Assembly (NCBI GenBank): GCA_963920765.1
Contig: OY987250.1
Coordinates: 8,982,409-9,046,408, forward strand
Length of the DNA stretch: 64,000 nucleotides
Reading direction: 5' to 3'
Source of the DNA: Ulota crispa
Taxonomy: Eukaryota; Streptophyta; Bryopsida; Orthotrichales; Orthotrichaceae
This document shows, piece by piece, positions 8,279 to 27,900 of the stretch. Every line of letters starts with the position of its first letter. Positions within the stretch are counted from its first letter, which is position 1. The notes under the pieces were generated by a model that was given only the letters and a program-made list of their open reading frames with translations, was not told the DNA's origin and searched no databases. The translations under genes and the position numbers were made by a program.

Positions 8279-8812
8279 ATGACAAGAGATCATCCGCTGT
8301 ACGAGTACATATGCGAGTCACCACAAGACATCCGCTCTCCCCTTCTCCACACTCACCGAATCTTCATTAAGCAACAACCCCTAGGGTTTCTCACAAAATG
8401 CTTCTCGTTACTCTTAATCGGGAGCACGGCGTTCTTCTCAGGCTTGCATTGGATATTGATACCACTTGCATTGCTTTTCATTTTGAGACGACGGAATGAC
8501 GTTGAACAAGAGGCAGTGGTGGTGATGCCAACGTTAGGGATTCAACTCGAGACTGTGTATCGGAGTAAGACTGTGAAGCGACGGTTCGTTCCTCTGCATC
8601 GGGTTCTGTGGCCTGTGATCAACGAGGCTGTGACTCCCACGACTTGTTTTACGTATCTGGCGTTGTTGGTTCGGGATGAGTCTCGACTCACGCTCACGTT
8701 TCTGCATGTGCGCCCTCCGGTGTGCATGTTGGTTCCTATCTGGACTGCTCTTTGCGAAGCTCTCGGACATCGTCCTCCTCCCAAGAGCTTGCTGCGAAGT
8801 AAGCTTAGTTAG
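8279..8812 (+). CDS. PIGH: GPI-GlcNAc transferase subunit H (PIG-H), intronless
   Basis: A 177-residue protein with the PIG-H domain. PIG-H is a subunit of the GPI-N-acetylglucosaminyltransferase complex, which transfers GlcNAc to phosphatidylinositol on the cytosolic face of the ER, the first step of GPI-anchor synthesis. Residues about 41-69 form two hydrophobic segments (a membrane hairpin), as in the family. The domain follows: a VVMPTLGIQLET block (residues 81-92), a RRFVPLHRVLWPVINEAV block (101-118), a YLALLVRDESRLTLTF block (125-141) and a terminal helix WTALCEALG. ATG 8279 is the first in-frame ATG; an in-frame TGA lies 18 bp upstream. Length is close to plant and animal PIG-H. A GTAAGC donor-like site overlaps the last codons, so an alternative spliced C-terminus is possible, but I found no good continuation. 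Confidence 0.87.
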   Translation: MTRDHPLYEYICESPQDIRSPLLHTHRIFIKQQPLGFLTKCFSLLLIGSTAFFSGLHWILIPLALLFILRRRNDVEQEAVVVMPTLGIQLETVYRSKTVKRRFVPLHRVLWPVINEAVTPTTCFTYLALLVRDESRLTLTFLHVRPPVCMLVPIWTALCEALGHRPPPKSLLRSKLS

Positions 8813-8984
8813 TTAGAAACAGAAATTATGTTTTTATTGCATTCAATTGTATGGTTTCAATTGTTTACTAGAATTTTTTTCCCTGTTTTCGATTGTTTTA
8901 GGGTTTCAGCTTGTTATGTGTTCGGTTTTGAACATCGAGATTATAGTTAGTAGTTGTTAAAAATACAATTACACTTCGTTGCAG

Positions 8985-9190
8985 TTGTACAGTGCATGAT
9001 ATTTATAACCAACAACTCCCAATTCAATTGGTTAACCTAAGGTTTTGTCGAAAAAAAGTTATCAAAAATTTGAAGTTTAGGGTTTGTCTCGTTTGGTGGT
9101 GGAATTATTTTTGAGCTAATGAGTATATGTGTTGTGTCTTAGTATTTCTTGTTTGGCCAATAGTTGTTGGTTATAAGTGTCATGCACAAT
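8985..9190. repeat. inverted repeat with TTGTTGGTTATAA ends
   Basis: The left end has GTGCATGATATTTATAACC reading into CAACAACTCCCAATT, and the right end has the reverse complement form (AGTTGTTGGTTATAA followed by TGTCATGCAC). A related copy lies near 30171-30215. The pattern fits a short foldback element or two abutting retroelement ends. Boundaries are approximate. Confidence 0.5.
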
Positions 9191-9316
9191 AGTGATGCGT
9201 GTGGATGACGTTGAGCATCCTCTGGCTTAGGATTTTTTTTCTGGTAGTTGTATCTATCTAAAGTCCTTTTTTAGTCGTATACTAATGGTTGGCGCTTGCT
9301 ACACTATACATTCACT

Positions 9317-9540
9317 ATTAGAATTTTAGAATTTTATTAGAATCTTCATATGTTAGTAAATTTTTTAATAAGTTTTCAAATTATATGTATGTGATAATAT
9401 CACAAAATAGATGTGATATTACATACGGTCTTGTGACTTTAGTAGTATGATGTCACAAAGATTAGATATGTGATATTATAGAAGGACAGATGTGATATTA
9501 CACTGGTCATTGTGATTTTAGTAGTATGATTTGATATGTT
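9317..9540. repeat. dispersed TGTGATATTA-rich repeat, copy 1
   Basis: Contains repeated TGTGATATTA words and ends with GTGATTTTAGTAGTATGAT. A second copy is at about 60465-61045, where a 404-bp MITE is inserted; this copy at 9317-9540 is the unoccupied version and shows a single TATCACA at the corresponding point (near 9398). Confidence 0.7.
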
Positions 9541-9832
9541 GTGCGTCGTGTCGTTGCAGTTCTGTGATTGAGGGTCATGCTGATACACTGAAACCGTATG
9601 GAAGGTAGTTCTTATTAGAAAGAAGGCTCCGATAATTATAGAAAGGTACTGGTTATTTGCAAGACTTGTTTTCGTCCCTTAGGGTGAGGCTCCTCATTGG
9701 GGATGTAGTGACTTGCAAGACTCCTATTGTCACTTAACAAACAACGATCTATCTTTACAACCATCCTTGGGGTATGCGCTCACTGAACCTGCTGTAGTTC
9801 ATCAAGCCTCTTTAAAATGGGCGTTTAAAATA

Positions 9833-11849: not shown

Positions 11850-14800
11850 TCAGGCACCGTTGTTTGCTGACTCAGGAGCCTCTCCGTTGCTCCGGTCAAG
11901 AACTCTTGCTCCATTCGATTTCTTCGCAGGTGATTTCGTGCTCTTTGGTGTATCAGACTTGGAGGCTCCCTGTGCCTCAACTAGTGTCGACTCCAACAGC
12001 TCCCCGTCATCTGTAGAAGAAAACGAAACCAAATCATTTACAAACACAAAACATTTGCAAGAAGAAAAGGAAAAAACTTAAGAGCACATAACTTGCAATT
12101 CTGTCAAAGTAAAGAAGGTTTGCAAAGACAATATTTTAGAAACACCAACGCCCCTTTATCAGCACGCGACAATAGTAAACATGAAACTCACCTTTATCAG
12201 TGGGATCATCGTCTTCCTTGTTCTTCCAATAGTCGTCCAATTCTGCATCCAGAGAAGTTCCGCCATGCTTCTTGTCTTTCATTCGCCACTGCCAGTCCAG
12301 CATAACAGACGGATATCTCAAATATCAATAGATACCAACAGAATTCCATATTCCAAACTGTAAAGAAATAAACCAAAAAAGACTTCATCTAATGAGGTAC
12401 TCTACACTTATATCAACAAACGGAACGCCCAAGCAATAGTTGCCAAACTAGGTTTTTCCTGCTGCGGTACCTCATCTAAATCAGCATCCAAAGCTTCCTT
12501 TGTCAAAGGCTTTTGATCCCGGTCCTTGTCCCGTCCACCACGACCACGACCGCCACGACCCCCTACAGCCATAAAAAACACATGAGATTCAATTCCTGTG
12601 TCGACAACGGTCAGGCAAAAAAGGCAGTTCCAGATGATTGGCAAAAAGTGTCCTGGGAAGTAGCAGAGACTGCTAGAATGAGATAGTAAAATCACTTCCA
12701 ACTGACATAGCAAACGTCACAAACGTAAACAGTACAGCAAGAGGTTCCACCCAAACATTTTTCAAACTCGAGATTGATGAATTCAGCACTAGAAGCGGTT
12801 GAAATTAAGAAAAGGATAATAGGTTTCACTCATAGATACTCGAAAGAGATTGAAGTACAGTGCCATCATACACGGCATCGTGATAATCCCCCTGAAGCAC
12901 ACCTGTACCTTGCCACGTAAGCCTGAGCCAGTTGCTTTAAGTTTATAACAAAACTTCCTGATGCAGTTTCACTTTGTACTACCCTTGAAACCTTTTGTCC
13001 AAAGCAAGGAACGGAGAGAAAACATCGACAGCAGCATCGATCAAGGAACAAGGGGTGAAACTTTGCCCATGATTTAACCCTTAAAGGACGAGGCTACTAT
13101 GATACATAGTATGTACGTCGCCATATAACTAGCATTTGCTACCAACAAAAAGTTTTAATTTGGAATCTTGACTACCTCACTAGAACAGCATTGATTTATA
13201 TTCTAACTTCTTTGTTGATCTCAAATGTAATAAAGGTGTGGATGCACTCCAAATACAAGAATGCACCGTATTGTACTGGTCGCAAAGGGCTGCCTCGTCC
13301 TTTAGGGGTTAATTCCAACCATAAACTTCGCTTTTTTGAGCATGACATGCTTAGCTGTCACTATCGACCAAGAAGTTTTGCACCTTTCAACCAGGAACAC
13401 CGAAACCAAGGATAGTACGCCAACAAACAACTTTCAGTCTCTAGAATGAGGCGATCGTAGAGAATGCACTCGGACTTGCGCTTTAAAAAAATCCGCAGGC
13501 AAAGGTACCTACTTCACAATATTCCTTTTTACTACTGATCAGTTCCCGCAATTGCTCGTCATATCTCCGTACTTACTATAACTGAACGCTGGCTGCCACA
13601 GTTCTGAAAGTTTGAAAAATCCGCAGAACTGGAAAAAGTAACAAGGTTCTGTGATGTCGTCCACATCCACACCCGCTTGAAGCCAGCTCTAGGGTTACGA
13701 ACACGAATCCTTGCGTGAAGTTTTGTGAGGTAGAGGGAAACTCGTACAGAGCGCTTGATTCTAGCCAACTTCTAACAAAAAATCGCTACAGGAAGCGTAC
13801 TCTCAACCTTCCCGAAGTTCAACAGCTTCTATCTTGCGGACAGCTCCGAGAAAAATCCAGGACAGAGAGGCGCGGAACACTAAGCACGCATCCAGGCATG
13901 GCAACTACCAAAGAAACGAAAGCCTTTGAAATAGACCAAACCCTAGCTTTGTGAAGAGGTCTGCTCGCAATCTTAGAACGCGCTAGGAAGAACAAACGCG
14001 GATGATTGACGGCAGGGAAGACAGCAACCATGCAAACTGTTTAAGAAACGAGAGTAACTTATTTCGAGAGAGAAAACACGCACCCCGACTGCCTCGTCCG
14101 CCCCGTCTCAAAACACGAATCCTTGCATAACGTTATGTGATGAGGTAGAGAGAAACTCGTACATAGCACTTGATTCTAGCCAACTTTTAAGTAAAAATCG
14201 CTACAGGAAGCGTACTCTCACCCTTCCAGAAGAAGTTCAACAGCTTCAATCTCCGGACACTCGCAGTAGCTCCGAGAAAAATCCAGAACAGAGAGGCATG
14301 GAATACTAAGTACACGCATCCGGGCATGGCAACTACCAAAGAAACGAAAGCCTCTGAAATAGACCCAAACCCTAGCTTTGTGAAGAGGTTGTAAGAACGC
14401 GCCATGAGACATAGAGGAATGAGCAAACGCGAATGATTGACGGCAAGGAAGACAGCAACCATGCAAACTGCTTAAGTTCGAAAGAAAAAACGCACCTCGT
14501 CCGCCTCGTCCGCCGCGCCCCCGCTGCTGCTGATGATGATGATGCCCGCGCCCGTGCAACAGCGGCCCTTGCGGCCCGCCCGTCGGCCGCTTCAAGATGC
14601 CGGCGCCTTGCACTCCGAGAGGCAGAATGCCGCCTCCCAGTCCTCCGCGGGCGCCATAGACGGGGCCAAAACCTCCGCCCCCGTGCATCCCGTGCGGTAA
14701 GAAGCCCGCGCCGTAAGGCTGCTGCTGCCATCCAGCTGCTGCTGCTAAGTCCAGTGCTGCTGCCGGTGCGGCGTAGGGCTGGTAGCCATGGCGGTAGCGG

Positions 14801-15360: not shown

Positions 15361-16319
15361 TTGGTAGAGCATCTCCAGCCTTGAACTTCAAACTTGATAC
15401 TAGATTACATTTATTTTCTAAGGGCCCTCAAAATTCTTGCTCTCTAGCCATGCACGGTATAAATTTTCCTAGCAAACATTTGCCTAAATCTTACCTTGAA
15501 ACCAGCCTGGCAACTTGAACACTAGACAAAATCTTTGAAAAAGTGCACGAACTTGTTGAAGCCCTCTCCAAGTTTCAGCAGATTTGCCATATTTTGGATG
15601 AAAGTTACTAAAATTAGTAGATTTTGTGGATGAGCATGCAGACGTCAATGAATCTGTCTAATTCTATTCAAATTTTCCTTACCTGCTTGCGTGGTAGGGT
15701 GCATGTCGCTCTACCAACGAAAATATTAAAAAAAAACCGTTGGGCATGCATTTCAAACATGGCCCTTGCACTTCAAGCGTATCCCACAAATAGTCATTTG
15801 ACCATTCACCAAAGGGAATTGTCGTGTAAATAGATATCGCTAAACACAACACATTGTGTACTATCACTAACAGCAGATAAAAACAAAAATGTAATCCAAA
15901 AACATATATACAAATATGCTCTTAATTGCCCCCCCTAGCTGGCTAATGGAAACCCACGAGTCAGTTAGGACTATACTAAAAGTATAACTAGATCTAAATA
16001 CTAAGATGAATATAAGTCTTCAGCATCTATCCACACCAAAGGTAATGTTGTTGGCGACTGACAATGACAAGTGAGTATGATGAAAAGAATGTATAAAAGA
16101 TTGTAAGTTGGATGCATTGATGAGCCCCATCGTTAATCGCATTTGGCAGGTTTTTAGTGCCAATCTCTTATTCAATCTCTTATTAGTCCAATCTCGTGCG
16201 CTGCAAATTTGGCGCCTAGTCAACAAAAGTGGCAATGCTGTCATCTTGAACATAAAAGGCTTGACCTCAAGAGATTATCAACGCTTGTCCAGAGTCGTAG
16301 CATGGCTTGAAGATCTCCT

Positions 16320-16450
16320 ACAACAAGGACAAATCTAATCTCTTGGAGGTAGAGTCAACAAGGACGGAACTAAGTATGCCATATGCTAACCACGTTGGCA
16401 CTGATCACACAAAAGTATAATAGCCGCGCCTTTCTTCTTTCCACAAACAA
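16320..16450 (-). pseudogene. PHD finger at the 3' end of the retrotransposon pol
   Basis: One frame reads a VCGKKKG block (Cys codon 16442-16444), LLCDQCQRG (16390s-16412), a stop, HMA (His codon 16383-16385), LVPSL, LPPRD, then ICPCC (16320-16334). This follows the PHD consensus CxxC...LLCDxCxxGYHxxCLxPPL..LPxGxWxCxxC. Two expected Cys read Tyr and two expected aromatic positions are stops, all single-base changes, so it is a decayed copy. It lies in the same orientation about 370 bp after the integrase remnant. PHD fingers typically bind the histone H3 tail. Confidence 0.75.
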
Positions 16451-16820
16451 AATAAGATAATCCCTCTGGCACCAATGCCAACTCCGGCTACTTGATACCG
16501 TCAATGGACATGTGACAAGAGATACAATTTTTGGAATGTTCCCTGCACTCTCACCCATCCTTGCTTTCCAATAAAAAAATGCCATTAGGCAAGACGTTCT
16601 TCACGCAAAAAATGGTACGTTTTACTCTGACATCCAATGTTGTAGGCGCTTCAAGCTGCAAATACACATAATCTTCTTGAAAGAACTTTTGCAGCTGCGG
16701 TCGATAAGCGCCGCTACAAATGCGCGTATAATGTAAAGAATCTTGATGCTAAGCTATATGTAAATTTTCCAAAGCCATAGGCATGGCTCTTTTGAAGAAC
16801 TCAGTCCGATCATGTAGGCA

Positions 16821-17480
16821 TTAAGCCCAAACATCTGGACTATCCAAGTCCACGACTAAAGCCAGCTTCTCCTGCACGAAGCTAGGCAAAATGGACTTTC
16901 TCCCATATAACAACTGGTAAGGACTAGAAGAGGCCAAAGAAGCCTGTTTACTAAAATGGTAACCCATAGCAATCCATAGCAACATCAAATCCCAATTTCG
17001 ATAGTTTCTACAAAGCAATCCATACTTGCATAAACCACGTTTTATTGTTTAAACAACTTGTTCAGCCAAACCATCTGCCTCATGGTGATCTCTAGAGATG
17101 GTGTGGTGATCAAGCAAAGCCTTGGTGTATAAAGTCTCAAAAGCTCTTAGAAACTTTTGACCTTGATCTGTCAAGATTTCAACTAGTACTTCAAAGCGTG
17201 CCAATACTTGGTCAAAAAATGCCATAGCTGCTAACTCCAAAGAGTTCTGAGGTAAAGCAACTAACTCAATCCATTTCCTGAAATTCTCTACCATCACTAA
17301 TACGTGTTTGGCTCCACGTGGGGTGACTACAAGCGGTCCAGCAAAGTCCAAAGACCAACAATAACTTAAATCCATGATAGGTAAAGGCTTCAACTATGGA
17401 GATAAAGTGTAAAAACTTGATTTCACTCAATCACACACCTCACAACAAGAAACATAAGTGGAAATTTGCTGATATATGCT
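16821..17480 (-). pseudogene. integrase remnant of the Ty3/gypsy element
   Basis: A CEVC segment near 17430-17445 fits the end of the HHCC zinc-binding region. It is followed by LDFAGPLVVTPRGAKHVLVM (catalytic-core start with its Asp, about 17330-17350), ILTDQGQKFL (second core block, about 17160-17180) and HHEADGLAEQVV. A separate frame (16821-17018) continues with the SPYQLLYGRKSILPS segment typical of the core's end. Frames are broken between these parts. No chromodomain is recognisable downstream; a PHD finger takes that place. Confidence 0.82.
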
Positions 17481-17879
17481 AGTCCACCAATACTGATTGC
17501 ACAACATAGAATGCGTCTTGTGCACTCTAAAATAACCAAGCTTCTCATGCACTTGTCGTATCAAAGAAGTTCTCTAGTTCAATCTAAGAATTATGCGCCT
17601 AGCTCTATCCGGTCAAATTTGAATCAACAAGCCGTTATCCAAATGGAACCTTGTTATTTGATGGTAAACTTTGTCTCACTCCATGATGGAAATATTCAAA
17701 GGAAATGATTCATGCTGAAGTTTGTACAAGACCATTATGTCCTCTCACACATCTTCAATACCTTAAGACTTATCAAGCTCATCATTCAAATCTAGATCAG
17801 CCGCCTCAGTATCAGAGTTTGATATCAAAGTCAAATAAGCAACTGCGTGTCAGCTTGGAACTACCTCCAATTCACAATC

Positions 17880-19407
17880 TCAATGCTATCTAGCACCAAT
17901 CAAATCTTCATTAGATGGACTTGGATTGCAAAAAAGCCCATCCGCATCCAGGTTAGTGATACCAACTCAGTGAATAACCTCAAAATTATATTCTTGAAAC
18001 AACAGAACCCACCTAACAAACTTGCTAGTGAGTTTATCTGACTCCATAAGCCACTAAAGGTTGATAATCTGTCACCAATATAAAGTGTTGCACATACAAG
18101 TAAGGCCAAAAATGTGAAATGGCCCATACCGCAATTAGAACTTCCCCTTCATAAGACAAATAGTTAGAGTCTACCAAGTTGTTACTCCTTGAAGCAAAGG
18201 CAATAACATACTCACGTCTTTCTTCATCTTTTTAAGTCAAAACTACACATAATCCCATTGCATTCCAATCCGTATACAATTGAAAAAACCTAGTAATATC
18301 AGGACATTGAAGCATGGGTGTTGAGCCCAATTTCTGCTTCAACATATCAAAAGTCAATTGCTGCTCACGGCTCCATGTCCACATGTGATCCTTGCCAGTG
18401 AGCATAATTAAAGGCTTGGTAATCAAGCTGAAGTTCTTGACAAAACGGCGATAATAATTTGCTAAGTTAAGAAATGTACGCAACCTTAAAATATCACAAG
18501 ATATTGGAAGCTTTCGAAGAGCATCCACTTTTGCCTGCTGTACGCCAAGTCTTCTTGAAAGTATCATGTGTCTCAAGTATAACAACCTTTCATAGAAGAA
18601 TTTGCACTTGCCGTAATACAAGTACAATCCTCATTCACGCAATCGCTCAAAAACGGCTTGCAAATGCCTTACATGCTCCTGAGGTGAACTACTAAAGACA
18701 ATAACATCATCAATGTAGCATCAAGCAAATGACAATCTAGTCAAAACACAATCCATCACTCTCTAAAACTCAGTAGGTACGTTTTTAATATCAAATGAAA
18801 GAAACTTCTAATGATAGAATAGATTTCTGCCATCATGATCTACTCTCCAAAATGCAGTCTTCACACAATCTTCCAACCGTAATGACAACTGGCGGTATCC
18901 AGTTTTCAAATCCAATGTATTAAAGATTTGAGCCGATCCCACTGCATCAAAGAATTCCTCTGGCGTCAGCATAGGAGATCAGTATGATTTGATCTTTTTA
19001 TTAATTAGATGGTAATCTCCACACATTCTTTTCTCAGTCCAATTTTTAAATATATCCTTCTTAGAAAGCATTATCGTAGCACAAGCGTACTTGCCATTAG
19101 ATAACTCAATCAAACCCGCAGCTAAAAGCTCATGACATTGGGCTTGAACACTAATCTTCTCAGAACTACTCAATTTATAAGGACATCTGAAGATCGGATG
19201 ATCATTCTCAAGCTGAATATGAAGAGACTTACCTTTATAACTTTCCAAATCATGAAGATTAAAAGCAAAATAACTCTGATACGAGTGAATGAATATTTGC
19301 ACCCCAAGTGCCTCAACATCTGTGAGATGATGATTTAAACTCAAAAGCCAATCATCAAACTCCGTGGTAGTCTTTTCTATCAAAGAATCACTACCAGATG
19401 TGGACAC
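17880..19407 (-). pseudogene. reverse transcriptase and RNase H remnant
   Basis: RT starts within 18979-19407 (CPYKLSSSEK, ELLAAGLIELSNGKYA, MCGDYHLINKK). The catalytic YIDD motif is readable at about 18697-18720. The connection (18232-18627: LRTFLNLANYYRRFVKNF, PLIMLTGKDHMWTWSREQQ) leads to an RNase H start at TDWNAMGL (about 18255-18280). RNase H continues to about 17880 with YEGEVLIAVWAISHF, LVTDYQPLMWLM and DADGL. Ty3/gypsy-type by sequence pattern and order. Several stops and frame changes; no intact polyprotein. Confidence 0.87.
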
Positions 19408-19574
19408 AACCTGTCGTTGCTAATCAGAAGAGGGAAGGATAATATCACTACCTCTAACATTGTCATGTAGGGTCAAAGTAGCAAAGGCTTTTTGAGCTTG
19501 AAGCTCATCCAAAGCTTGTCACTAAAAATGCAAATGATGCCTAGAATCCTTATTAACTATAGCGATTGGCATTT

Positions 19575-20640
19575 TTATTGCTCCAAACCATTGTTCTCTG
19601 CCTTCAGAGTGAATAATTTGCCATATTGCTGCTGAACAGCAAGCCACATGCCAATAGTCCAAACCATGGTATGAAGATCTATAGTTTGACCCAATACAAA
19701 GCGTCGTTGACTTTTGGTGAGATCATGAGCTGATGTAGTGCCAATAGAAAAACCCATGGCACGCTCATGCTTATCCGCATTGCCCTCTTCATAAATGTGA
19801 TTATGAGAATCCCACACCATACCAGGTCCACGTGCTCGGAATGCAAAAGACTTAAAATATGTAATAAATGTCAGTAATGCCTCGCAAGACTTCTTAACCT
19901 TATTGACAAAAATAAAATAAAGTGAATCGGCTTAGATCACAACTAAAGGTTCTTTGTGGTAAACCAAAATGTCCTTTATCAAAAGTCTTGGAGATATAAT
20001 AATTTGTGAAAATGCCTTGGCCAACATGGAATGTGACACCATGTTGATCTAAAGCCAACGTGGTCAATGGGCAAATGACTTTAGTGCAGCGACACCCACA
20101 AAGGTTGGAAGACTAAAAATTTGATAAATATAATAGTCATCTTCTATCACCTTTGGCCGTTCATCGGCCAATAGAAGTACATCCTCAAAAATATACCCAG
20201 ATGGAGTGGTTTGATGGTTATACCACCATTGTATAATCCTCACAAATTTCATAAAAAAAACTAGATCTTTGGTCATCTAACATTTGACCTGCATCTGCTC
20301 GTGAATGACCTTGGCAAGGCCATTCTGTCACAAGCAAATCAACGTGATTCAATCTCCTAAAATTCTGATCACTAATAAAGGTAACGTCTCCAGAAAGGTG
20401 GCCAAAACATTCATAAATAAACAATGGCGGCAATTACTCAAGGAATTGAGCCATCAACTTCTGAAAATGATGTTGGGCTATTCTGGTAAGAATATAACTG
20501 TCATTAACGTGAATGTACCGCCAAATCATGAGCCCAGCCTCTAAAATGGTTGCCAATCTGGTGTCAATGCCTCCAAAAAACTCCATGAAAGTGATTTCGT
20601 CTATGGATAGACGCTAATTGATAAATCGCCCGGAGATAGA
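19575..20640 (-). pseudogene. DNA cytosine-5 methyltransferase domain captured by the retrotransposon
   Basis: Conserved C5-MTase blocks appear in order. Motif I, which binds S-adenosylmethionine, reads FMEFFGGIDTRLATILEAGL from about 20592. Motif IV reads VDLLVTEWPCQGHSRA, with the catalytic Cys codon at 20314-20316 intact. A motif V-like DDQRSSFFYEI follows (about 20280-20240). After a frameshift near 20240, motif VI reads GYIFEDV (about 20178-20198; the family has ENV), then VAALKSFAH (about 20065). The C-terminal part (19575-19820) holds ERAMGFSIGTT and RRFVLGQTIDLH, matching motifs IX-X. So nearly the whole catalytic domain, about 340 residues, lies between protease and RT. Stops and a frameshift make it inactive. 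Capture of C5-MTases by retrotransposons is known from some algae and protists; this exact lineage is not known to me. Confidence 0.85.
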
Positions 20641-20829
20641 GCTCATGGGAGTAAAAGCTAAAGAGTCAAAATGTACAGAAGCTGCAATGTCCCTATATCA
20701 TTGAGACAATTAATGACGACTAGTCCAAAGTGGCAAAGCATCATTGGAAAGCTAAAGTGTAGCTAATAAAATTGATGACTCTCATCAGTCCTCTGGAAAT
20801 GCGACAGCAAACGCCAAAGTCTCCTCTCA

Positions 20830-21330
20830 GAGCGAAAGACCAAATAGAAGGGTCTCTAAAGATGCCGAGCATCTAAACATAGCGTTAGTAGCTACAAACA
20901 TAGTCAATGCTGCAAATGCCACTGGAATCAGCTCCTTCCTACCATTGCCAAAAGACCATCCTAGTCGAATCCACGCTTTTTTGGTCCAATTATCTATACT
21001 GAAACTAAGAGGGTAAAATGCCTGCTGACCAACTAAAATATCATAATTGATAGCATTGGTGACAGCGCACCTCAAAGAAAAATGAAAATAGATAGATCTT
21101 CCACCTACTCAAAAAATCAGCTATAGAGGCTTTTTGGTGTAGCCTATAGCACTCTCCGTGCCCCCAATTAAAGTGACAATAGTGAATGGACAAAACACCA
21201 AGTCTTTAGTAGTCAAACCAAGTTCTACCGCCAAATATTTGCTAATCATAATTGGCCAGGCACCTGAGTCTATCATCACTCTAAGTGGAGTAGCTCAATG
21301 ACCATGCTCTCCATTATATGAAACCACGAA
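20830..21330 (-). pseudogene. retroviral-type aspartic protease remnant
   Basis: RVMIDSGAWPIMI is readable at about 21245-21282, containing the DSGA active-site motif. Downstream, in the frame at 20827-21075, NAINYDILVGQQAFYPLSFS matches the flap/late region of retropepsin-like proteases. It sits directly upstream of the methyltransferase block. Confidence 0.75.
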
Positions 21331-21864
21331 GACTCCATTGTTGTTTACCAAACATACAATACTTAGATATACAGCTTGTCGCTCTCTAGTAGATCTTGCT
21401 GAAACATTAGCAAGATAAGCTGCTTCTATTGCTAGAGGTACATCCATAGAGGAATAATGCGGTGTTTGGCTATGTACATGCTCACCAAATGCTACAATGG
21501 CTTCAGTTGCAAACTTAGCTCGTAACTTTGTTTGAGCCTCTGAACCATAAATTGAAGAGGTCTCAGCAACAACCTAAAAAACCTGAAAAGATGGCATGTC
21601 CGCTTTTTCTTTTAAAACACGTCCCACCACATGAAAGATTTTAGAAGCCTGAAAACTAGGTGCCATCAACTCTGAGCCAGAAAAAAATCGACATCTGTAT
21701 AACTTTAAAAATTATGGTTTGCAGTAAATCAGATGATGCAGAACCTCTAAGATGTGAAAGTGAAACAACAAGGTGTTTGCCCGTGGCAATAGCATCAGCC
21801 AGACCAAAAGATAATGGCAGGTATATTTGGCCAATAGAATCAATAGGACCACTATAGCGTGCGC

Positions 21865-23489
21865 TGTGGAGTAGAGAGGAATTTGCCTCGGGAAATCACT
21901 GGGATTCTAGCTGCAGCCCATCTCATATCAACAGGTGGAAAGATACCATAAAATAAAATATAGCTCCCAAAAACAAAGCTAGAAGAAGACAAAAAATCAA
22001 AACAAGAAGAAAAGAAGTGAAAATTATGGAGTATGTAATATATATTATGAAGAACATCTCATTTTTTCCCAAGTAGGGTTTCACCTATATACTAAAGAGA
22101 GAAGACTTAAAGTAAAAGTTCTTCTTTGCTATTAATCTTTGAGTTACTTTAAATAAAAATAACTCTAATGTAAAAGTTACTCTCTATTATTGGTCCTTAG
22201 AATCTCTTTACTAAAGTAAACCATGGTTGTTGCTTTATCAAAACCTTATCCAGAAAAACCTTATTAAATATGAACAAAACTGCGGATGAAGAAAAAAGAG
22301 TACAACACCTCACACATACTATAATCTAATGACTTTCCTTATTTTTATCATATGCCGTGATTTACATCACGACATCCACCCCCTCCAAACTTGCACATCC
22401 TCCAATATGTGCCAACCTTCAATCTTCATCATCTTTTTTTTAAAATCAATTATAGTCTTCATCTTCTTTTTTTTTTTTTTTTTTTCATATAAATATGTAA
22501 TGCCTTTACCATAGTTAGCTTAGCATTCAATTGCATTTTCCTCTTCTTGACATCACTATTAAGCTTATGAAAATCCATCTTAGTATACCTAGAGCTCCTT
22601 TCATTGAAACTCGATTTAGCATCCAAAATCTTGATCCTTTGAATTCACCTTTCATGCATGTCAATTGAAGACTCAATATAAAACAAAAGCTTGTAAGCAA
22701 TAAATATGGTTTTAGATTGGTCTTCATTTGTATTTTCTTCTTTTTGACATTACTATTAAGCTATGGCAATCCGTCTTGGTATTACTTCAAAGCCTCCATT
22801 ATTGAAGTTTGATTTTAGCATCCAAGATCATTATCTTTTCAATTTACTTTTCATGCTTGTCAACAAAAGACTCAATATCAAATTTAACCTAGTAAGCATA
22901 AAATATGTAGCATCATCCATCTCATAAAAACAAAATAAGCTATTCCAAAGCGCTTCTTAGTGGAAGCACCATATGTCAAGTAGAGAGTAGCATGCTTTAT
23001 GAACACTCGAAGTGTCTAGCTGCGACTGTCTCAGAGAATCAAGGGAGAGATAGTATGCACATAATCACTATCAAAATAACTCTCCAAGATGATCAAAACA
23101 TAAGAGAGTAAAACACATAAAAATATGAATCAAGGTATAGGAAAATATATTGTGGTTTCAACGAACAAAACTCTTTCAAATAGGGTTTCAAATATATGCT
23201 GTGGAGAGAGAATATAAAAGTAAAAGGTCATCTTTTACCCAAAATTAAACTCTAAAGTAAAAATCTTTTTAAACCATTTATTTACAAATTCCTTTTAGAA
23301 TATACTTTAAAGAACTCTAATTAACTAACATTTCTAAAAAGATGTTGCTTCCTTAAAACCTTATTCAAGAAAACCTTACTAAACAATGACAAAACTGCGG
23401 ATGAAGGAAAAAGAATACAACGCCTCACACATACTATAAACTAACAATTTTATTTGTTTTTATTATATACCGTGATTTACATCACGACA
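21865..23489 (-). mobile_element. nested non-autonomous LTR retrotransposon (TRIM-like)
   Basis: Two direct repeats of about 510 bp: about 21865-22374 and about 22974-23489. Each begins TGT(G/C) on the plus strand and ends CACGACA, with long shared words (ACTGCGGATGAAG, CGTGATTTACATCACGACA). Only about 600 bp separates them, with no protein motif. On the minus strand a purine tract (GGAGGGGGTGG, about 22376-22386) precedes the left LTR, giving the minus orientation. GTGCG occurs at both outer edges (21859-21863, with one extra C, and 23490-23494), a 5-bp target duplication. It interrupts the gag-protease region of the Ty3/gypsy element, so it is younger than that element. Confidence 0.85.
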
Positions 23490-23551
23490 GTGCGTGAGAC
23501 AGCAATAACATCTGATACTGGTGAACTAACTAATCTTCTAGTGGTTTGAGA

Positions 23552-24900
23552 TCAAGTAGCCGCTGTAGCTTCTAACTCTCTAAATGTATCAAATATGTAA
23601 TGCTCAGAGCTAGAATAACCAGCTGTCTTTTTGGGAGATGTCCCAGAATCAGAAGCTTGAGCTAATGATGCAAAAGTCTTGAGCTTCTGCTCAAACTCTA
23701 CTACCTTAGTTGCAAGGGTCTTCTCCCTTTGAAACTTAACAGCCACAAAGCTAGCTGGCTTCATCTCAAGATGAAGCTGAAAGCACTGATCTTTATCATG
23801 GTTAGTGCCACCACAATGGTTGCACGCAAAGTCTTTTTCTTGGCCTTAGCTTCACCTTTCACCTCTTCCTTTTTAGTAGTCTTGGATAGCTGAGAAAGAG
23901 TCTTGGGTTTTTGTAGGCAATCTTTCTTGGTATATCCATATTATCCACATTTCTAACAATGCAAGATCTTCACTGGCTTAGTGTCCAACAAATTGCTAGT
24001 GACAATAGGGGTCTTCCTAGATTTGGAAGAATCTGTCATGAAAGTGACTATATCCGTGACATCATGATAACAAAGCGCCCAATCTCATCTCTCAACGAGA
24101 GCAAAAATTTGGGCTAAGATAGCTCTACCCTCATAACCATGGATAATCCAAAGGAATACTAAATCCAGCAACCGCTTGTCAATTTTTGACAAAAAAATCT
24201 TCACAAGCTAACTCTTAGTAAAAACTCTACCAGACTCTACAGCAAACCATGCCAAACAAGTGTACATGGTGCATGGCGTATCTTCCTTCTCCCTCCGAAA
24301 GTCTTGAAATTTATTGCATCTAATCACGACGGAATCTGCTATACTCCAGCACCAAATGTGCAATAAATTGCGCTAGTAGATCAAATCAAGGTGGGAGACC
24401 AACTGAGGCTAGTACTGCCTGAGTAGCACATGCCATGCACAACATGGTAGATGGTGTAGCACTCTTTGTCTTAGGTCCCAAGGCTATCGCTTTGCCCTTA
24501 GAATCCTCAAAAGCCAATCCATCATCTTTGCTACGTTTCTCTTCTATCTTCATAGATGAAGAGGCAAAAGCAATTACCGTGCCATCTTTGAAAGTTGAAA
24601 CAAGTTTTACTTGCGTCTTCTAGTAAAACTGCACCTCAAAAAGCTCAAATTTGTGAACATGAGTTCACTGCTCATAGGTCTGAAGAGCCTCAAATTCCAA
24701 ATGTTAAGGCAAAAGCTCAAAGGCAAACTAATCGTTAAAACTAGGTGATCTCTAGCGCTTCTCCTTTACCCATGTGCGGAAGCAAAGCTTCCAATCGAGA
24801 AGGGAAATTTTCCCTACACGTCTTGAGAAACAATTATGCACCAATTTGTGATGATTGTCCTCCATCTTGTCAAACGTGCCCATACTCAAGACCCAAAGCC
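23552..24900 (-). pseudogene. gag remnant with CCHC zinc knuckles
   Basis: A clear knuckle, CNHCGGTNHDKDQC (CX2CX4HX4C), lies at about 23785-23826. A second, degraded one (HC..KCG..YGYTKKDC) is near 23910-23965. Between and around them are Lys-rich segments, as in nucleocapsid regions. A coiled-coil-like stretch (KTLATKVVEFEQKLKTFASL) follows at 23650-23720. Upstream capsid-like sequence reaches about 24900 but is broken by stops. Confidence 0.75.
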
Positions 24901-27900
24901 TACTACTAGTATCCAATGCCAAATCTGGCTGAAAAACCTCATTTTATTTACTACTGGCTGAAAGTCCTCAGTGTGGATACTGTCCAAGTAATCTGGTTAA
25001 AAAGACCTATAATATTGGCTCATAATCTACACCATAAATAAACTACTTAAGTACTTGCAATTATCTACCTGCTTAGGGCAACCTGACCTGCAATCACCAC
25101 CAAGCTGTGTAGTTCACCGGTAATAATATCAGGTGAATACAAGTCCAACACATATAGAAAGGTCTTGCCGGCAATCAACTCGACTTCATCTCCACAATAT
25201 GCCCACTCCCAACAAAAACACTAAATGAAACAATTTCCGCAAACATGGGAGGTATCAACAATAAAATCCATAACACAAATCTTGGATCTTCTTTCCCAAA
25301 CAACAGATAAGTAGAAATAAAAACCTGCATAACCGGCCAAAACGTCTAAACAACGGGCCACAGTCATTCTACAGAAAGGCTCAACAAATGATATTTGACT
25401 GCTTCTCTAAGTAGTTACCGCCACCCCTTCAAAGTTTTTGTGTTAGATGATCAAGTCATCCACTTGCGTTTTTTCTTTCCGGCCCAAAACTATCACCCAA
25501 CGACAAATAAGCAGAAATGAAATGAAACCAACACAATCGGCACTCGCCTGCGGTTGGTAGTAAGTAGCAAAGTGAAATGCAACAATTTGCAATTTCAATG
25601 ACCCAAAATCCAATGTCCACCAATCTCATAAGAAATTTGACAATCATCCACTAATGAAATACATCCGATGTGGCATAGCCACGATGCCATATCATGTAAT
25701 CAAATATAGGATAGAGCTCACTAAACTTAAGATGAATAGTATTTTGAAGGGTCATTGCTTTGACACACTAGAATGGAGTGCCATGAGAGAATTTTAAAGG
25801 GCCTTGAGCACTTATCATTTGTGCTTTGAGTGTGTTAGACCATATCAGTGCAAGGGTGGAGAAGCTTTAAGGATGGAAGCTCATAAATTGTCCAAGTTCT
25901 AAAACCGTCCACTTTTTCAAATGTACTCTTTCTGTACATGTTATTTTTCATAGGTTTCAACAATGTATACAAGCACTATACATTTGAGGAGGTGGGCAGT
26001 TTTAGAACCCTATGCCACTTCAACTTCAAATTTTCATAACCAATTTTACAAAACTTCAAAGAAAGATGAAACAACTTGGATTAGATGCTAGTTCCTCTTG
26101 TCTTTCAAGGAAAGTTTACTGAAAAATATTTCAAGAAGTTTCACCTCTCCAAAATTCATTTTCAACTCTCAAATGGTTAGTTTATGAGCCTCTTACCTTA
26201 CCTCAACCAATGTTTGAGGAGAACCGGCATTTTTAGTGTATTATCAATAATCAATTGAAATTAGAAAAATACATAACTAGTTTTAAATTACCCAGAAGAA
26301 GTGATTAGTTTTTTATTTAAAAATTAGTTATATTATGTTACACTATAGATAGGAAATAAATAAATCCACCACGCCTTTTTGTTAAATCCACTACATTGGA
26401 CCATGTTTACAATGTGTAAATGAAATGGAACTTAAATGTAAAATATTTATTAATCTCGATTAGAGAAATTTTTTTTTAAGTAAAAGAAAGAATAATAAGT
26501 TATTTAACAATGAAAAATCAAAATGAAAACTTTAATATCACATAGCAAGAAAAATATGACCAATATTGAAGTTGTAATATTTTGAAATGAATCTTGAAAT
26601 TTTAGGACCATGAACTTATAGAGCCTTGACAATGACAAATGATGATATTCTGTAGCCTCTCATAGGTTGATACAAGACAATTGAAAACCTTTTAAGATCA
26701 TAGTTGATTTTGTAATAGGACATCCTCGTTGTTAAAATTTATGGCAACTAGGGCCATCAACACATGAAGGCGTAAACTTTCAATGAGGACAAAGAGAGAG
26801 AAAAAAAAACTCCATGTGGTAAAAAAAAAGGAAATCTTGCCTTTGATGAAAGGCATAATTACAAGCACTTTTACATGTTCGTATACCATTTATTCAGAAT
26901 AATCATCCCTAACACCAATAGATTGTCCTAAGCTTTTTTAAATGCATGAATGTTTTCTTAAGGGAATTTTAGGTTGAAGTGGTGGACTAATTACCATGCA
27001 ATTTTTCATGCTAAATTTGATATTTGATACCATATTTTAACTATTTATTAATTTTGAAGTTAAAAGTTGCCCCATGTCATATTAAGGTGAAGGCAAAAAT
27101 TTCAAAGACATTTTGTAAATAATGTCATATACCTTAGAGCTTTATAGGTGTAGTATCTTTACCAGCAATCAATTCAAAATAATCATTTATAGAGAATGAT
27201 TGTGGTGACACCAAGTAAATACTTGGACCACAAAAAATAAATCAACCAATATATGGTATCTTTTCATCACTATCCATCCAAAACTTATGTGACTAACCAT
27301 GAATGGATATGCCACAAAAAAATACCAAGACTAGTCAATCATAATAATAGATCACCTTTACTCTCATATCTTTGCACTCTTATATCATTATTGCGCTCCT
27401 TACATAAGCTTTTTTTTCTTTATTTGTTTTTTATTACTTTTTACAATTTTTATTTTTGAATACTAATGTATTTCTAAATTCTATATTTTTTTGAATAAAT
27501 GCTATAATTAGAAAATTAAAACGTTATCAAAATTTGGACACAAAGAAATACAAGATACAAAGAAATAAAAAGGTCAAAGAAAATTTATTTGGTTGCTACA
27601 ACGTCTCCTTGTCTTTTTTGGATTCACACGCTTTTTTAACCTATATCCAACATTATGAGTTAGAGATGGAGACACAAAGATCCATTCCCAACTCACACCC
27701 CTCCCACGCAATCAATACTTCACTAAATCTAAAATTTAAAAGTATGTATCTTGAAAGTTTTGACTATAGATTGAGAATGTGTTGGTTTTAAATTGATAGT
27801 GGGTTTGTAGTGATTTTGAAAGCAATTTGATCAAAATTTGATGATTTTTTCTAATGTTTTTTATTAAAACTCCTCTTAATTTGATTTATGTCAAATTTTA

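Follow-up and report, generated by a model that had tools for sequence, protein, structure and literature searches.

Does the cytosine-5 methyltransferase that lies inside a retrotransposon remnant of the moss Ulota crispa belong to the element, and what would the element use it for? Plants use DNA methyl marks to silence such elements. The remnant is found in the window, by which we mean the whole stretch of 64,000 nucleotides analysed here (C9:8982409-9046408, on chromosome 9 of a genome of 274.8 Mb), where it occupies the minus strand at ∼15.82-25.70 kb as a single, broken copy of an element that encodes proteins of the Ty3/gypsy type. It is best explained, in our view, as the decayed copy left by an old retrotransposon lineage of bryophytes, one with a Pol of this type; with the roles proposed below included, we put the probability of this reading at about 60%, and the anatomy of the element, taken by itself, is close to certain.

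The genes run on that one strand in the order gag, protease (PR), C5-methyltransferase, reverse transcriptase (RT), RNase H and DDE integrase, with the 5′ end at the high coordinates and a later insertion inside. The remnant spans 15820-25697 and is bounded on both sides by repeats that have counterparts at the termini of four other copies. At the 5′ end, a remnant of terminal repeat A1 (25642-25697) matches the A repeats of copies L012, L019, L024 and L027 at 85-96% over 51-56 bases; in four other copies A1 measures ∼340-390 bp. The gag region (23555-24372), split into frames and with a CCHC zinc knuckle near 23845, is recognized by a probe match and, in the pieces upstream of that probe, by its likeness by eye to the gag of L029, an open relative described below. 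It is followed by an aspartic protease with a DSGA motif and a C-terminal extension (20830-21294), of which the piece at 21124-21294 matches Asp_protease_2 at E 5e-4, below the Pfam cut-off (21.1 vs 24.3 bits), while the PR and PRc probes match 13 related copies. The methyltransferase (19578-20613) is separated by a putative leaky-stop site, TAG CAA CGA (19414-19422), from the broken RT and RNase H (18037-19419), which are supported by an RT match at C9:9000463-9001818 (E 6e-210) and by an RT_RNaseH_2 match at 18235-18630 (E 2.5e-7; 31.1 bits, above the cut-off of 29.8). The integrase (16824-17573), also broken, is identified by probe matches and by its core at 17052-17393, which matches rve at E 2.1e-7 and with 31.6 bits falls 1 bit under the cut-off of 32.6. 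A remnant of the integrase C-terminus with its PHD finger (16296-16583; C9:8998704-8998991) shares 69% identity with that of L029 (E 1.4e-39), although two short window pieces at this site had no Pfam match by themselves. The 3′ end is formed by a repeat B (15820-15933) that is 87-96% like the B repeats of four copies and is taken as B1, its upstream context being B1-like by eye; no A2 or B2 was found in the window copy, and there is no A match downstream of repeat B. Stop codons interrupt the protease (3), methyltransferase (5), RT (5), RNase H (7) and integrase (5). The preliminary description of a retrotransposon with its own C5-methyltransferase is thus supported, but the copy in the window is dead, with stops in five domains.

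The minus-strand pieces of the methyltransferase contain motifs I (FFGGI), IV (PCQG), VI (FEDV), VIII (AH*PRW, with a stop inside) and IX-X (ERAMGF, RRFVLGQ). The motif IV piece, at 20221-20433, clears the curated PF00145 DNA_methylase cut-off by itself (25.5 vs 22 bits, E 1.1e-5), and the L029 methyltransferase used as a query matches 19626-20255 of the window (C9:9002034-9002663) at E 6e-58, with 49% identity over 210 residues. The pieces that carry motifs I, VI, VIII and IX-X had no DNA_methylase match singly in Pfam; used as probes, those with motifs I, VI and IX-X find every one of the 13 related copies, and that with motif VIII finds 11 of them. Motif VI reads EDV in the window copy vs ENV in most relatives. 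The Pfam, probe and L029 matches confirm what had been described from the letters, namely methyltransferase motifs in correct order, on one strand, between a DSGA protease and the RT, and they supply the significant DNA_methylase match that had been named as a check.

A profile search of the genome returned 46 PF00145 matches at E ≤ 0.001, and 20 of these loci were taken with their flanks for a comparison of layouts. The order gag-PR-methyltransferase-RT-RNase H is present in 13 of the 20, with an integrase found in 11 of the 13; these 13 are also the loci that the gag probe (23555-23845) matches, upstream of the protease, and the remaining seven match none of the element probes. Genome-wide, where the counts are lower bounds (scoring covered the best 91 of 972 candidates for RT and the best 103 of 157 for the methyltransferase), a methyltransferase lies upstream of the RT on the same strand in 83 of 89 scored RT loci, within 1.5 kb in 81, and an RT lies downstream in 83 of 90 methyltransferase loci. 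It is therefore practically negligible as an explanation that the motifs line up by chance in the window copy, or that a foreign sequence landed there once between PR and RT. Nothing was found in favour of either; the Pfam and L029 matches and the fixed order speak against them, and the genome-wide pairing with RT refutes them. The spacing of PR and RT in relatives, proposed earlier as a way to tell these cases apart, shows the methyltransferase block to be a fixed part of the family.

All 97 RT rows found among the best-scoring candidates in the Ulota genome carry stops, with no open copy among them, and because every one is interrupted the lineage may be extinct in U. crispa. The same genome holds a second, strongly diverged subfamily, represented by L017, which is 24-55% identical to the domains of the window copy and has its own leaky stop and PHD match. 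Two regions, C3:32751717-32776445 and C4:9400909-9415846, contain pairs of inverted copies with identical scores, which are either large inverted duplications or assembly artefacts. In copy L022, dense tandem repeats with a spacing of ∼44-45 bases and multiples thereof follow RNase H (8692-9652), and no integrase was found in that region.

The host itself has DNMT3-, DRM- and CMT-like loci. Comparison with solved structures indicates that L010, which is not an element copy, is DRM-like, that L020 is CMT-like (its best chains are labelled DNMT1 and are, we presume, maize ZMET2) and that L014, with DNMT3A as its best match, is DNMT3-like; L013, L015, L021 and L023 were assigned by eye. Four host loci (L014, L015, L021 and L023) have a DNMT3-like motif IV that reads PCQ, not PCN. 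Ulota may have several DNMT3 genes.

Relatives outside Ulota were sought first with 384 open residues of copy L022, which found 21 proteins, and then with an alignment query, which found 170, the best 120 of them inspected. At least five matches are named from mosses or liverworts: P0031, P0048 and P0126 from Calypogeia fissa and P0056 and P0083 from Sphagnum troendelagicum. P0031 is 46% identical to the first frame of L029 over a stretch that takes in the last part of the protease and the methyltransferase, and P0083 shows the protease motif LDSGAQ by eye; the methyltransferase is the sole Pfam match in either. No RT, leaky stop or PHD finger was seen with any of these Sphagnum and liverwort proteins. 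Most other relatives come from metagenomes as unnamed proteins, and many consist of a methyltransferase piece and nothing else; P0001-P0010 are open or partly open, and P0024, P0054 and P0121 have a protease or RT domain in Pfam. Neither search (in the alignment search, its best 120 of 170) returned a match named from Klebsormidium, and P0002 as a query had no match among viral contigs. The sole open relative with both frames is L029 (CADCWO010000201.1), in which gag-PR-methyltransferase runs open from the contig edge for 1162 residues and, after one TAG and in the same frame, RT-RNase H-integrase-PHD is open for 1047 residues; the methyltransferase thus stands at the end of the gag-PR frame, outside the RT frame. 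The records of L029 and P0003 are named as cyanobacterial and Obscuribacterales MAGs, yet they contain moss-type retrotransposon sequence. Because their nearest kin are moss elements, we infer that both are probably moss DNA binned with bacteria, i.e. eukaryotic contamination of the MAGs.

As to METHYLTRANSFERASE class, the family profile run against PDB chains ranks DNMT3A, 3B and 3C at the top (52.5 bits), above HaeIII (31.5) and HhaI (26.5), and these three account for the first 29 of the 57 ranked sequences, among which there is no DNMT1 or CMT chain. DRM-type chains reach 23.9 bits (4onj, which we take to be tobacco DRM), in a ranking that is biased against them, since their permuted order keeps them from scoring along the whole chain; a second profile search gave the same top ranks and no DRM at E 0.001. 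The motif order I, IV, VI, VIII, IX-X is unpermuted and not that of DRM. Taken alone, the open sequence of L022 matches DNMT3A at E 0.13 only, so that the DNMT3 match requires the family profile. Neither ADD nor PWWP occurs in the 1162 residues of the first L029 frame, where PF00145 and the protease are the sole Pfam matches. By profile, then, the enzyme is to be classed as DNMT3-like. Capture from a bacterial or phage methylase of the Dcm type, instead of a DNMT3, would fit the matches to PF00145 and to TIGR00675 dcm (the latter far under its cut-off) and a motif IV that resembles the bacterial AGWPCQ of P0017; we regard this origin as quite improbable, given the lead of DNMT3A over HaeIII and HhaI in bits and its longer match, which extends to motif VIII. 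A tree of 41 rows (44 were entered; HhaI, P0015 and P0020 were dropped by length) splits 36 family rows from five bacterial ones (100/100) and contains no DNMT3 row; the window copy falls in a clade of 12 rows (100/100).

Between gag-PR-methyltransferase and RT-integrase lies a nine-base motif of the tobacco mosaic virus (TMV) type, TAG CAR YYA. It was compared at 22 junctions, comprising the window, the 13 flanked copies, L029 and seven of eight short methyltransferase pieces (the junction of L041 lies outside its piece): 16 of them have it unchanged, and six, among them the window's TAG CAA CGA, differ from it at a single base. L029 has TAG CAA TCA, and L017 has an exact TAG CAG CCA in frame, though its methyltransferase pieces are only 24-40% identical to those of the window. 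In TMV, CAR YYA after the UAG is reported to be indispensable for readthrough, which reached 32% at the TMV site in reporter tests (PMC2754532). Because the motif is conserved over the junctions and CAR YYA is a reported requirement in TMV, the TAG is very probably leaky, in which case synthesis of the methyltransferase would go together with that of Gag and protease and exceed that of RT and integrase. It might instead be an ordinary stop, with RT-integrase produced by reinitiation or from a separate mRNA and no special link to Gag dosage. P0054, in which methyltransferase and RT (48% identical to that of L029) share a single frame, speaks for this option in so far as the lineage can dispense with a stop, and because of it the leaky stop is not universal in the lineage; but retention of all nine bases, or all but one, at the 22 junctions, the exact site in the divergent L017 and the common phase of the two L029 frames leave an ordinary stop with little probability. 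The site is that of the tobamovirus type (UAG CAR YYA; PMC2754532), but its place here is in a retrotransposon, at the boundary between gag-PR-methyltransferase and RT-integrase.

The integrase of L029 is a DDE integrase with an H2C2 zinc-binding domain (rve, 1.2e-13; Integrase_H2C2, 9.6e-18). Its C-terminus is a PHD finger (PF00628, E 4.3e-10); a chromodomain was considered for this position and rejected, as Pfam shows none there. The L029 C-terminus as a query has 125 matches in the Ulota genome, including the window (16296-16583) and the L017 locus, and the weaker ones are probably host PHD proteins. Among the best 60 of 83 solved PHD fingers, the nearest are those of CHD4, fission-yeast Cph2, PHF12 and UHRF1, with MLL3, KMT2D, KDM5 and PHF21A among others further down. 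Several PHD fingers of this ranking read the unmodified H3 tail. Chromoviruses, which are of the Ty3/gypsy type, likewise have a histone reader at the C-terminus of the integrase; theirs is a chromodomain, whereas the Ulota family has a PHD finger in its place.

The termini follow another plan. Four copies with paired ends have A1 at the 5′ end (336-392 aligned bases, 84-89% like A2) and B1-A2-B2 at the 3′ end, with a B1 of 107-108 bases and no repeat B found at the 5′ end; L009, L011 and L025 have the same B-A-B order, and other copies show parts of it or nothing. The window copy, the fifth set of ends compared, has no repeat pair, and an ordinary LTR pair was rejected for it on that ground. 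Two equal long terminal repeats are thus absent, A1 lacking B and the 3′ end reading B1-A2-B2 in four of five sets of ends. Recombination between B1 and B2 would explain a copy that, like that in the window, retains A1 and one B and no A2. The outer ends are TGTC...GACA or decayed forms of it. Nine copies were examined for target duplications, four of them with an end that was not recognized; a 4-bp duplication flanks four of the five with both ends recognized, L019 having none. L027 sits in a repeated unit, of which an uninterrupted neighbouring unit shows the empty site; its flanks overlap on that site by three aligned bases and the fourth base differs. The Pol is thus of the Ty3/gypsy type, with the order PR-RT-RNase H-integrase, a DDE integrase and target duplications of 4 bp, and the repeats are of the DIRS/PAT type. 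The earlier label of Ty3/gypsy therefore holds for the proteins and fails for the terminal repeats, because these are split. DIRS/PAT elements, which share the split direct repeats A1...B1 A2 B2, have a tyrosine recombinase, no target duplication and often an adenine methylase; the Ulota family differs in its DDE integrase and its duplications. Pfam scans found rve and no tyrosine recombinase in the two L029 frames.

Compared with L029, the methyltransferase has a dN/dS of ∼0.16-0.22 in the seven of 22 copies with dS < 1, despite later decay, and dS is saturated in the other 15; for RT, L022 alone is below saturation (∼0.18). Among all pairwise comparisons within the set of Ulota copies plus L029, those with dS < 1 have a median dN/dS of 0.58 for the methyltransferase (119 pairs) and 0.46 for RT (67 pairs). 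Judged by the ratios against L029, the methyltransferase evolved under purifying selection. Against L029, pN is higher for the methyltransferase (0.28-0.38) than for RT (0.14-0.30) in the same 13 copies (L022 excluded). Methyltransferase distances correlate with RT distances over 15 copies (r 0.83, p 0.0002), weakly so in 12 close copies (r 0.26, p 0.12), and with integrase distances over 13 copies at r 0.72 (p 0.06).

C>T singletons per site in the RT-integrase region of 11 copies number 17/259 in CG, 32/363 in CHG and 233/4350 in CHH contexts, and A>G singletons 128/13625; the methyltransferase region gives 5/74, 12/122, 81/1408 and 59/5001, respectively. Per site, C>T is thus ∼5-9 times as frequent as A>G in all three contexts, element copies alone being compared. 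Such an excess fits prolonged methylation in every sequence context, whichever enzyme was the writer. The CpG observed/expected ratio is 0.35-0.55 in the copies and 0.82 in L029, but the depletion is not clearly specific to the element because the whole window also stands at 0.55.

From these features we propose how an active element would have worked. It would have encoded gag, protease, a DNMT3-like methyltransferase, a leaky UAG, RT, RNase H, a DDE integrase and a PHD finger, bounded by the split repeats A1...B1 A2 B2 with TGTC...GACA ends. The UAG would halt most ribosomes, so that the methyltransferase would be made in Gag-like amounts and RT-integrase in a fraction of the chains. Because it would be made in such amounts before the UAG, the enzyme could be packaged, and it might then methylate the new cDNA before or at integration, the insert entering the chromosome already marked. 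Such self-methylation of cDNA is our candidate for the main role, at a shade under even odds. The PHD finger, being like readers of the unmodified H3 tail, would bias integration towards chromatin without H3K4 methylation, and for targeting of this kind the sequence likeness leaves the odds evenly balanced. Methylation of cDNA upon retrotranscription was already proposed in section 11 of PMC5890265, to which the leaky stop would add an argument from dosage and packaging. A bolder and, in our estimate, rather doubtful reading is that the element had a complete chromatin kit, a DNMT3-type writer at Gag dosage and a reader of unmodified H3, with which it sought out silent chromatin and inserted itself pre-methylated, the kit maybe predating the split of mosses and liverworts; were this true, the element would work with silencing and not against it. 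The element may also alter silencing through its own methyltransferase, as the preliminary description had suggested.

Two other roles compete with the marking of cDNA. The enzyme could act mainly in trans on chromosomal DNA, i.e. on resident copies and host loci, so that the element limited its own spread and persisted. The 11 compared copies are indeed C>T mutated in every context, and slowed retrotransposition to the benefit of both host and element is an option raised in section 11 of PMC5890265; but host enzymes could account for the methylation, and synthesis beside Gag and protease, ahead of the leaky stop, suggests that the enzyme acts in the particle, for which reasons we think this role unlikely. 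Less likely still, the domain may no longer methylate DNA and serve instead to methylate RNA (the genome or the primer tRNA) or as a structural or SAM-binding part. Section 11 of PMC5890265 relates that SymbioLINE-Dnmt failed to methylate DNA in yeast, brings up RNA methylation as a possibility, and reports that SymbioDIRS-Dnmt3 enzymes methylate CGs. Motif IV of the family reads PCQ, not the PCN of DNMT3A; however, the host DNMT3-like loci also have PCQ, open relatives whose alignment covers the PCQ, ENV and RxR motifs have retained all three, and the purifying selection on the domain also argues against its loss of function. Self-methylation of cDNA thus stays our preferred role for the enzyme.

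Elements of this kind have been known since 2018, and the Ulota family is their bryophyte variant: in the plant line, a retrotransposon that had captured a DNA methyltransferase was reported earlier from a charophyte alga, Klebsormidium nitens, whose KnitGypsy-Dnmt3 is described in PMC5890265 as having a Gypsy-type Pol, a Dnmt3-like methyltransferase under purifying selection and DIRS-like repeats, all as in Ulota. Its methyltransferase is reported to lie inside the Pol frame, whereas in Ulota-type elements (L029) it precedes the leaky stop. The main text of that paper contains neither 'PHD' nor 'readthrough'. The two are likened here by description, and may stem from one capture or from several. 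The same paper describes SymbioDIRS-Dnmt3 and SymbioLINE-Dnmt of Symbiodinium, retrotransposons that likewise captured a C5-methyltransferase; these are DIRS and LINE elements of dinoflagellates and, according to its text, unrelated to the Gypsy case. A survey of 2025 (PMC12344493) reports that in streptophytes and dinoflagellates DNMT3 members occur inside LTR Copia and DIRS elements; the passage concerned names Copia and DIRS, the Ulota family has a Ty3/gypsy-type Pol, and the survey's figures and supplement may hold bryophyte cases. In a weak search, which covered titles and the starts of abstracts of the open-access literature, the papers listed include none on a bryophyte retrotransposon with a methyltransferase and none on a PHD finger of a plant integrase. 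As far as such searches show, what is new is a moss family of many copies with a leaky stop, a PHD finger and target duplications. The family numbers at least 80 copies, has been kept under selection and has related proteins in Sphagnum and in the liverwort Calypogeia. Its leaky stop and PHD finger make the question of why a retrotransposon should carry a methyltransferase testable, in terms of packaging, cDNA marking and H3 reading.

Two further repeat structures are present in the window. The later insertion lies between gag and protease at ∼21900-23489 on the minus strand and resembles a non-autonomous LTR element of small size. It contains direct repeats of 147 bases (22228-22374 and 23343-23489, 84%) that start, by eye, with TGTCGTGATGTAAATCACGG, and a tandem repeat of 187 bases lies between them. 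About 1.6 kb past the 3′ end of the element, at 13726-14232, a 92-base direct repeat (91%) recurs with a spacing of 415.
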